From contig NZ_FOWE01000004.1 in NCBI RefSeq assembly GCF_900115395.1, forward strand, positions 248,001 to 312,000: a stretch of 64,000 nt of DNA. Direction: 5' to 3'. Made by a program: the position numbers and the translations under genes. Positions 61,757 to 64,000 of the stretch are shown here, in pieces. Numbering within the stretch: the first letter of the stretch is position 1; each line of letters begins with the position of its first letter. The notes beneath the pieces are model-generated. The model ran no database searches, was not told the DNA's origin, and was given only the letters and a program-made list of their open reading frames with translations. The DNA is from Geodermatophilus obscurus (lineage in GTDB: Bacteria > Actinomycetota > Actinomycetes > Mycobacteriales > Geodermatophilaceae).

Positions 61757-62020
61757 CTAGAGCCGGCCGCGGCCCTGGCGGAGCAGCACCAGGCCGAGGG
61801 TGGCCCCGTCGGGCCCGAGCGCGTCCTGGTAGCGGGCGAGCACCTGCTGCTCGCGGGACAGCGAGAGCCGCGTCCCGCCGGTGGCGCGGCGCAGCTCGCC
61901 GATCTCCTGCGAGACGGCGAGCCGGTGCTGCACGAGGCGGACGATCTCGGCGTCGCAGGCGTCGATCTCGCCGCGCAGCTCGGCGATGCGCTCGTCGGCG
62001 GCGGTGCTGGCGGTGGTCAT
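61757..62020 (-). CDS. Chorismate mutase, AroQ type
   Basis: An 87-residue monofunctional chorismate mutase, which turns chorismate to prephenate for Phe and Tyr. ERIAELRGEIDACDAEIVRLVQHRLAVSQEIGELRRATGG gives the first helix with the catalytic Arg (LRGEID) and a Lys replaced region (EIGELRRA); then LSREQQVLARYQDAL. The position next to pcrA is conserved in actinobacteria. ATG 62020 follows CAGGAGA. The leader has a short ORF and a terminator hairpin, suggesting attenuation. Confidence 0.88.
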   Translation of the reverse strand: MTTASTAADERIAELRGEIDACDAEIVRLVQHRLAVSQEIGELRRATGGTRLSLSREQQVLARYQDALGPDGATLGLVLLRQGRGRL

Positions 62021-62068
62021 CTCGGTCTCCTGGCGGGGGCGGGGACCTCCGGGACCCGGGAACGAGAA

Positions 62069-62097
62069 ACGCCCCGGGCTCCTCGGGCCCGGGGCGT
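62069..62097 (-). terminator. Terminator hairpin in chorismate mutase leader (possible attenuator)
   Basis: ACGCCCCGGGC and GCCCGGGGCGT (62069-62079 and 62087-62097) form a perfect 11-bp stem. On the minus strand it is followed by TTTCTCGTT, so it reads as an intrinsic terminator 49 bases upstream of the chorismate mutase start. Confidence 0.7.
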
Positions 62098-62113
62098 CTG
62101 TTGCGGCGGTTGC

Positions 62114-62179
62114 TCAGCCAGCGGCGACGGACACCGGATCCCGGTGGCCGTAGGAAAAGCGAACGGTGGCGAGCAGCAC
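62114..62179 (-). CDS. Possible leader peptide of chorismate mutase
   Basis: A 21-codon GTG-started ORF that includes RFSYGHRDPV, with one Phe and one Tyr codon. Its TGA lies 16 bases before the terminator hairpin. CACCGG/CCGGTG (62132-62137 and 62141-62146) inside the ORF could form a pause hairpin. The arrangement fits transcription attenuation by aromatic amino acids, but only two aromatic codons are present and the GTG lacks a clear ribosome site. Confidence 0.4.
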   Translation of the reverse strand: MLLATVRFSYGHRDPVSVAAG

Positions 62180-62283
62180 GTCGACGAGTGTGGCACAGCG
62201 GCCCCGACCAGCGGCCGCCCGGGCTCCCGGCGGGGCGCGTGGGACGGGTGTGGAGGACGCGGGGGAGCGTCCCCCGACCGAAC

Positions 62284-62298: not shown

Positions 62299-64000
62299 AT
62301 GAGCAGCGTGCAGCAGGCCCTCCCCGGAACCGCCGCGCTCCAGCGTTCCGCCCCCGGCTCGGCCGGCCGGGAACTGGACCGCATGCTGGCCGGGCTCAAC
62401 GGCCCCCAGCGCCAGGCCGTCGTCCACGAGGGCGGCCCGCTGCTCATCGTCGCCGGCGCCGGGTCGGGCAAGACCCGGGTGCTCGCCCACCGCATCGCCT
62501 ACCTGCTGGGCGCCCGCGGCGTGCAGCCCGGCGAGGTCCTGGCGATCACCTTCACCAACAAGGCCGCCGGCGAGATGAAGGAGCGGGTGGCCCAGCTGGT
62601 CGGCCCGCGCGCCCGCGCGATGTGGGTGTCGACCTTCCACTCCATGTGCGTGCGGATCCTGCGCGCCGAGGCCGCCAAGCTGGGCCTGAAGTCGTCGTTC
62701 ACGATCTACGACCAGGGCGACTCGGTCCGGCTGATGACGATGGTCGCCCGCGACCTCGACCTCGACGCCAAGCGCTACCCCGGCCGCAGCCTGGCCGCGC
62801 AGGTGTCGAACCTGAAGAACGAGCTCGTCGACGAGGAGTCGTTCAGCCCCCAGACGGCGCCGGAGAAGGTGCTCAAGGAGGCCTACACGCTCTACCAGCG
62901 CCGGCTGCGGGAGGCGCACGCGCTGGACTTCGACGACCTGATCATGACGACGGTCAACCTGCTGCAGGCCTTCCCCGACGTCGCCGAGCACTACCGCCGC
63001 CGGTTCCGGCACGTGCTGGTCGACGAGTACCAGGACACCAACCACGCGCAGTACGTCCTCGTGCGCGAGCTGGTCGGCACGGGCGAGGGTCCCGTCCCGC
63101 CGGCCGAGCTGTGCGTCGTCGGCGACGCCGACCAGTCGATCTACGCCTTCCGCGGCGCCACGATCCGCAACATCGACGAGTTCGAGCGCGACTACCCGCA
63201 GGCCACGACGATCCTGCTGGAGCAGAACTACCGCTCCACGCAGCGGATCCTCCAGGCGGCCAACACCGTCATCGCCAAGAACACCGGCCGCCGTCCCAAG
63301 AACCTGTGGACCGACGCGGGCGACGGCGAGCTGATCGAGGGCTACGTCGCGGAGAACGAGCACGACGAGGCCGCCTGGGTGGCCGAGCAGATCGACGCGC
63401 TGGTCGACGAGGGCAAGGCGCAACCCAAGGACATCGCCGTCTTCTACCGGACCAACAACGCCTCCCGGGTGTTCGAGGAGGTGTTCATCCGCGTCGGCAT
63501 GCCCTACAAGGTCGTCGGCGGGGTGCGCTTCTACGAGCGCAAGGAGGTCCGCGACGCGCTCGCCTACCTCAAGGTGGTCGCCAACCCGGCCGACGTCGTC
63601 AGCCTGCGCCGGGTGATCAACACCCCCAAGCGCGGCATCGGCGACAAGGCCGAGTCCTGCATCGAGCAGTTCGCCGACCGGGAGCGGATCGCCTTCGCCA
63701 CCGCGCTGCGGCGCTGCCCGGAGATCACCACGCTCGCGCCGCGCTCGCTCAAGGCGCTGCAGGACTTCGTGGCGCTGCTGGAGGAGTTCGAGCAGCTCGT
63801 CGAGACCGGCTCGGGCCCCGCCGCGCTGCTGGAGAGCATCCTCGACCGCACCGGCTACCTCGCCGAGCTCGAGGCCAGCACCGACCCGCAGGACGAGGGG
63901 CGCGTCGACAACCTCAACGAGCTCGTCTCGGTGGCCGCGGAGTTCGAGGCCGCCAACCCCGGCGGCACGGTCACCGACTTCCTCGAGCAGGTGTCGCTGG
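62299..64000 (+). CDS. pcrA: ATP-dependent DNA helicase PcrA/UvrD (5' part)
   Basis: A superfamily 1A 3'-5' helicase used in repair and replication restart; about 567 codons are in the window and the gene runs off the right end. LAGLNGPQRQAVV (Q motif), Walker A VAGAGSGKTRVLAHR near residue 52, AITFTNKAAGEM (Ia), VLVDEYQDTNHAQY (II), VVGDADQSIYAFRGA (III) and LLEQNYRS (IV) are all present. The later motifs V and VI lie beyond the window. The N-terminal 30 residues are a variable extension. Confidence 0.97.
   Translation, partial: MSSVQQALPGTAALQRSAPGSAGRELDRMLAGLNGPQRQAVVHEGGPLLIVAGAGSGKTRVLAHRIAYLLGARGVQPGEVLAITFTNKAAGEMKERVAQLVGPRARAMWVSTFHSMCVRILRAEAAKLGLKSSFTIYDQGDSVRLMTMVARDLDLDAKRYPGRSLAAQVSNLKNELVDEESFSPQTAPEKVLKEAYTLYQRRLREAHALDFDDLIMTTVNLLQAFPDVAEHYRRRFRHVLVDEYQDTNHAQYVLVRELVGTGEGPVPPAELCVVGDADQSIYAFRGATIRNIDEFERDYPQATTILLEQNYRSTQRILQAANTVIAKNTGRRPKNLWTDAGDGELIEGYVAENEHDEAAWVAEQIDALVDEGKAQPKDIAVFYRTNNASRVFEEVFIRVGMPYKVVGGVRFYERKEVRDALAYLKVVANPADVVSLRRVINTPKRGIGDKAESCIEQFADRERIAFATALRRCPEITTLAPRSLKALQDFVALLEEFEQLVETGSGPAALLESILDRTGYLAELEASTDPQDEGRVDNLNELVSVAAEFEAANPGGTVTDFLEQVSL

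Follow-up and report, generated by a model that had tools for sequence, protein, structure and literature searches.

Leader locus

Does the short open reading frame (ORF) that lies with a hairpin ahead of a chorismate mutase (CM) gene in the soil bacterium Geodermatophilus obscurus control that gene, and if so, how? We call the whole stretch of DNA analysed, 64 kb from a genome of ∼5 Mb, the window. A preliminary description had given a 21-codon ORF with Phe and Tyr codons, its stop 16 bases before an 11-bp hairpin; these coordinates and this layout were exact. The downstream gene, taken there to be CM, indeed matched PF01817 and, above cut-off, NF005894. The features are as follows, in the direction of CM transcription, with their evidence in parentheses.

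62187–62192, minus strand: -10-like box CACACT, 7 nt before GTG, marking a probable leaderless start (sequence; an xANNNT box lies 6 or 7 nt before the chosen start in 108/108 Geodermatophilaceae regions)
62114–62179, minus strand: leader ORF, GTG start at 62179, 21 codons VLLATVRFSYGHRDPVSVAAG, TGA ending at 62114 (sequence; kept in 108/108 Geodermatophilaceae regions)
62150–62158, minus strand: sensor codons TTT TCC TAC, Phe-Ser-Tyr, termed F-x-Y (Phe 108/108, Tyr 108/108, middle Ser 20/108; TTT 103/108)
62129–62149, minus strand: 1:2 hairpin immediately 3' of the Tyr codon (covariation helix 1; more stable than synonymous-codon versions)
62126–62143, minus strand: region 2, partner of 62084–62098 in the predicted antiterminator (duplex prediction; arm-swap test)
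62069–62097, minus strand: terminator-like (3:4) hairpin, perfect 11-bp stem 62097–62087 / 62079–62069 with a 7-nt loop (sequence; folding; covariation helices 2 and 3)
62060–62068, minus strand: weak U-rich tail TTCTCGTTC (sequence; rejected by consensus terminator scan)
62027–62031, minus strand: AGGAG, likely ribosome-binding site of CM, 37 nt past the hairpin and outside it (sequence)
61757–62020, minus strand: CM gene, AroQ type, 87 aa, the candidate regulated gene (PF01817, E 4.7e-12; NF005894, E 4.2e-27, and TIGR01808, both above cut-off)
62299–63999, plus strand: UvrD/PcrA-type helicase gene, divergent from CM and running off the window (PF00580 and PF13361)

The 16-nt spacer between leader stop and hairpin occupies 62113–62098, and the hairpin stands 48 nt ahead of the CM gene. 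As the helicase gene is divergent, there is no upstream minus-strand gene for the hairpin to terminate. The T-rich run that had been described after the hairpin is present but weak: the U-tract is poor, with 5 T in the first 8 bases, and a consensus promoter and terminator scan gave no match near the CM leader.

We scanned both strands of the window for this layout, defined as a start codon 5–8 nt after ANNNT, an ORF of 12–35 codons with an F/Y pair, and a post-stop hairpin of −20 kcal/mol or lower. Leader and hairpin were found together once in the 64 kb, at the CM locus. No window match reached the gathering score in Rfam; when E up to 1 was allowed, for seven loci, there were four weak matches, all below the gathering score. 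Taken in full, the 169-nt leader has an ordinary folding stability: z was −1.59, and 14 of 200 shuffled versions were equally or more stable. An exact match to the hairpin pattern occurs at a single place in the genome of the window, the CM leader locus. The pattern search was otherwise of little use, yielding 56 places at ≤2 mismatches vs 21 for the reversed control.

Conservation within Geodermatophilaceae

CM was present in 109 of 112 Geodermatophilaceae genomes, and its upstream region was read for 108; genome G019 was left out, its CM match beginning at base 16 of its contig. Named Geodermatophilaceae records overlap these genomes and were counted once. The leader is carried by all 108 regions. 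To fix its start we took the closest in-frame start codon that has an xANNNT box 4–9 nt upstream, giving GTG in 107 regions and, by this rule, ATG in one (L107). Presence of the box is partly by construction of the rule; its spacing is not, and the last base of the box lies 6 or 7 nt before the leader start in every region. With a -10-like box so close to the start, at 6–7 nt, the mRNA probably begins at the GTG, as a leaderless transcript. The preliminary description had named a transcript start downstream of 62114, or an unconserved ORF, as reasons to give up the attenuator; the sequence evidence points the other way on both counts, since the box at 62192–62187 puts the likely transcript start at the GTG.

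The first place of F-x-Y is Phe and the third Tyr in all 108 leaders. The middle residue varies, with Tyr in 55, Phe in 21, Ser in 20 (the window included), Ala in 6, Pro in 5 and Leu in 1; with Ser at the middle codon the window version is left with only one Phe and one Tyr. The distance from Phe to the stop is fixed at 14 codons in 108/108. Codon choice at the Phe position (62158–62156 in the window) is also nearly fixed, with TTT in 103 of the 108 leaders. By comparison, counts were TTT 0 vs TTC 250 in the 20 gene-like frames of the window, and TTT 0 vs TTC 110 in an 80-codon stretch of the Geodermatophilaceae CM regions. The fixed sensor codon is therefore one that these genes otherwise avoid. 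The preference is weaker in 43 leaders of other families (TTT 54 vs TTC 36).

The peptide itself is strongly kept within Geodermatophilaceae (YGHRxPVSV). This would suit a leader ORF that encodes a working small protein, with the hairpin as its ordinary terminator and CM expressed by read-through or from another promoter. We consider such a protein very unlikely, since the peptide after F-x-Y differs outside the family (e.g. FTYGNRPAGCHGRAA, RFFYGNRTPAPVIA, RFYFYYGTGSPAAVGRA) while the hairpin and arm pairing described below persist, and since the Phe codon is fixed as one avoided in genes.

Two co-varying hairpins

Directly after F-x-Y, 24 nt fold to a mean of −12.9 kcal/mol, vs −7.9 for versions with synonymous codons; the share of such versions that are equally stable has a median of 0.037 and a mean of 0.132. 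This 1:2 hairpin varies by compensatory changes. At columns 21–37 the pairs are CG 19, GC 16, GU 6, AU 1 and UA 1, with 17 unpaired; at columns 22–36 they are CG 26, AU 9, UA 6, UG 6 and GC 1, with 9 unpaired. The GC hairpin between leader and CM is likewise conserved and co-varying; its U-tract, however, is weak, and the consensus terminator scan does not pick it up.

The alignment scored for covariation comprised 30 Geodermatophilaceae sequences (of 61 with distinct region and arm) and 30 of the 43 others; three f3, nine f18 and one f110 sequences, whose loop lengths were expected to misalign, were left out. The 1:2 and 3:4 helices together have 21 pairs; 88.8% of their cells are paired, and 10/21 pairs have changed on both sides. 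The covariation score was 0.167 vs 0.084 for shuffled alignments, with 0/500 shuffles reaching the observed score, although relatedness between rows may by itself lift a score above shuffles of this kind; versions with the helices slid out of register scored ≤0.073.

A predicted antiterminator

The segment after F-x-Y can also pair with the 5' arm and loop of the terminator. In the window the predicted duplex joins CGGG(A)TCCGG(T)G with CCCGGGCCCG, plus CGTC with GACG; in family f15 it joins GGACTCCGG with CCGGAGTCC over 9 bp. We assessed this pairing by an arm swap among 55 sequences of 14 families (43 from outside Geodermatophilaceae and 12 of the 22 distinct sequences from within). The family mean was −20.33 kcal/mol in cis vs −17.60 when permuted (sd 0.56); the cis value was reached in 0 of 20,000 permutations. 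The swap signal is located in the first 24 nt (z −5.97), vs z of −0.80 to +1.13 for five control segments. Families f16, f3, f4 and f5 had no cis advantage individually. The predicted region 2, on the 3' side of the 1:2 hairpin, thus co-varies between families with the 5' arm of the terminator (region 3). An alternative antiterminator, which the preliminary description had proposed looking for, does exist by this test, and together with conservation of the ORF it supports the leader-peptide attenuator suggested there.

Could the leader ribosome instead control access to the ribosome-binding site of CM, by translational attenuation or coupling, with the hairpin merely shaping the leader RNA? 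The weak U-tract would fit, and there is a precedent in the available part of PMC13236596, which so describes the cysteine genes of M. smegmatis (leaderless polycysteine ORFs, by the title of its reference). We judge this unlikely, as region 2 co-varies with the GC hairpin and the AGGAG at 62031–62027 is 37 nt beyond it.

Placement of the ribosome

With a ribosome placed in silico on the Phe codon, nascent RNAs extending up to the loop formed at least 5 antiterminator pairs in 55/55 sequences. Placement on the Tyr codon gave at least 5 such pairs in 53/55, and only 16/55 reached that number without a ribosome. At the stop codon 41/55 nascent RNAs still had at least 5 antiterminator pairs, among them that of the window, which had 8.7 antiterminator pairs vs 0.2 of 1:2. 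For full RNA at equilibrium, the terminator won in every ribosome state, stalled ones included. A preference for the terminator with the ribosome at the stop codon did not appear in the nascent RNAs, and equilibrium folding alone does not account for termination in that state. Antiterminator pairs persist in those 41 nascent RNAs and the completed RNA favours the terminator throughout, so the choice would have to be made during transcription, and the switch must hinge on timing or on release of the ribosome.

Leaders in other families

We sampled 40 of the 152 genomes with a CM match in other families of the order. Divergent versions of the aromatic leader were found in 34 of these 40 CM regions, by aromatic screens, used at the class level too, that had no random-sequence control, the layout-scan control covering the window only. 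The 34 are 31 used in tests plus L195 (read by eye), L218 (the least clear) and L219. The check for a conserved short ORF in relatives, proposed in the preliminary description, gave a positive outcome, with Phe/Tyr leaders in 108/108 regions of the family and 34/40 sampled from other families of the order; with one Phe and one Tyr, the ORF of the window is not itself rich in these residues. The aromatic leader was not found in six f8 regions of the order sample (L174, L176, L180–L183). For L174 and L180, a -10-like box precedes the start codon of CM itself by ∼8 nt, which is what loss of leader and terminator, leaving a leaderless CM mRNA, would look like.

At the class level, 64 genomes from beyond the order were matched, and 19 of them were sampled. 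The leader was found in 9/9 f18 regions fetched and in one region each of f102, f110 and f113. Seven f93, f95 and f99 regions had aromatic ORFs that were weaker or laid out differently, and these were left out of the tests. An extra complementary pair, approximately GTAGGTC / GACCTAC, flanks the stop codon in f16 leaders (L162, L178, L179, L196); it is placed between the leader hairpin and the terminator, and has one variant base in L196.

We built a covariance model from 60 sequences. At E ≤ 0.01 it had matches in 127 of 150 genomes of the order, a count that includes weak matches and matches elsewhere. Among the CM matches listed, 75 genomes from outside the family also had an RNA-model match at E ≤ 1.4e-6; in 75/75 it lay on the same strand 36–324 nt upstream of the CM match, and 52 of these 75 had not been used to build the model. 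A further 13 genomes among the CM matches listed had no RNA-model match at E ≤ 1.4e-6; one of them, G214, had a weaker match (E 8.1e-6) just upstream of CM.

The model also gave secondary matches, of which 18 were fetched. Twelve precede a type I DAHP synthase gene or a gene with the same N-terminus (that of L228 matches TIGR01361 above cut-off), and 11 of these 12 have a leaderless-type aromatic leader, most also with Trp, e.g. MRFWYGYFRPPGADRVAERGVPR. The remaining six appear to be GC hairpins of an unrelated kind. GC-rich hairpins are common, and these six of 18, with neither aromatic leader nor such a gene, would favour reading the CM leader as a chance ORF beside a plain bidirectional terminator between two divergent genes. 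We find that scarcely credible: the genes diverge, so neither ends at the hairpin, F-x-Y is invariant in the family, the layout occurs once in the window, and strong model matches stand upstream of CM in 75/75.

DAHP synthase leaders

Type I DAHP synthase was present in 27 of 61 genomes sampled. A leaderless-type ORF with an aromatic codon cluster was recognised, by reading, in 11 of the 27, nine with Trp and two with F-x-Y only. No such ORF was found in 12 of the 27, and in four others the gene start was not located. DAHP synthase leaders with aromatic codons were L220–L223, L227, L228, L230–L232, L234 and L235, and L238–L245, L248, L252 and L257; they belong to f5, f9, f10 and f13, with one in f2. 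Most have Phe, Trp and Tyr, which are all the end products of the pathway (MRFWYGYF..., MQQRFYFWYGYRPG...), and where the DNA was inspected a GC hairpin follows the ORF.

In the genome of the window, a search for type I DAHP synthase gave no match. A scan of 600 nt upstream of the type II DAHP synthase gene of this genome (L265) gave no aromatic ORF of the leaderless type. A chorismate mutase type II domain is encoded by a second gene here as well (L217; G000:C11:357250-357483), and no aromatic ORF or leader was found upstream of it.

Comparison with known attenuators

The pheL-pheA attenuator works through competing helices and a terminator. In Escherichia coli, according to the part of PMC11802643 available, it resembles the leader studied here in having product codons in a leader peptide ahead of a gene with CM activity and in being regulated by charged Phe-tRNA. 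It precedes a CM-prephenate dehydratase gene, whereas here the codons are for Phe and Tyr, the mRNA is probably leaderless and CM is monofunctional. The aroR-aroF attenuator of Corynebacterium glutamicum is actinobacterial too; its leader peptide contains Phe-Tyr-Phe and likewise stands ahead of a gene of the aromatic pathway (PMC11802643, available part), although aroF encodes DAHP synthase and not CM, and the two are likened here by description. As that source recounts, citing Neshat et al. 2014, stalling at aroR raises transcription under Phe limitation; Tyr supply is given there as without effect. The Streptomyces trp, leu and ilv leaders share a leaderless ORF, product codons and a hairpin after the ORF, as far as described in the available parts of PMC8079986 and PMC1262725, and differ in their amino acids and genes.

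Within the text available, PMC8079986 describes eight leader peptides in S. lividans, many leaderless and none for CM, and PMC1262725 gives attenuators or leader peptides in Actinobacteria for trp, ilv, leu and cys genes. In the part available, the latter, a comparative study published in 2005, reports that phenylalanine and tyrosine operons of Actinobacteria showed no conserved RNA structure. M. tuberculosis attenuators are treated in PMC13236596, whose main text does not contain the words chorismate or phenylalanine; the available part of PMC2965389 does not mention chorismate. We recognised no CM attenuator of actinobacteria in the literature searched, which consisted mainly of titles and abstract openings, most subscription journals lying outside its scope. 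Judged from its sequence, the CM leader is a new, widely conserved putative example of ribosome-mediated transcription attenuation.

Proposed mechanism and significance

We conclude that the leader is very probably a ribosome-mediated transcription attenuator that would sense the charging of Phe-tRNA and Tyr-tRNA and so control chorismate mutase. Four points not noted before enter this reading: a start that is probably leaderless, UUU as the sensor codon, a hairpin directly behind the Tyr codon, and the breadth with which the leader occurs. Transcription would start at the GTG, giving a leaderless mRNA on which the ribosome presumably trails the polymerase. Under shortage of Phe or Tyr, the ribosome would wait at UUU or UAC and cover region 1; region 2 would then be free to capture the newly made 5' arm of the terminator ahead of synthesis of the 3' arm, and read-through into CM would follow. 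When both are plentiful, the ribosome would reach the stop codon, 1:2 and 3:4 would form, and transcription would end before CM; 1:2 would presumably re-form behind the ribosome or after its release. The otherwise avoided UUU may sharpen the sensing of Phe.

On a wider scale, we think it fairly likely that, in much of Actinomycetes, the aromatic pathway is under the control of leaderless aromatic leader peptides that form one old family. Its sensor codons would follow the branch, with Phe and Tyr before CM, and Phe, Trp and Tyr before DAHP synthase, which feeds all three; the Phe codon of CM leaders would be kept as UUU, almost unused in the genes of these genomes, to serve as a deliberately slow sensor.

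Attenuators of actinomycetes are of current interest, as the work on ilvB1 in the available part of PMC13236596 illustrates. CM is the enzyme that steers the common precursor towards phenylalanine and tyrosine, and the proposed switch would raise this enzyme when those amino acids run short, so that the Phe/Tyr branch point of a large bacterial group gains a specific candidate regulator. One attenuator found across 14 families, with its peptide and RNA sequence changed, makes a good natural data set on attenuator evolution, and the near-fixed, avoided UUU would allow a direct test of whether sensor codons are chosen for their kinetics.
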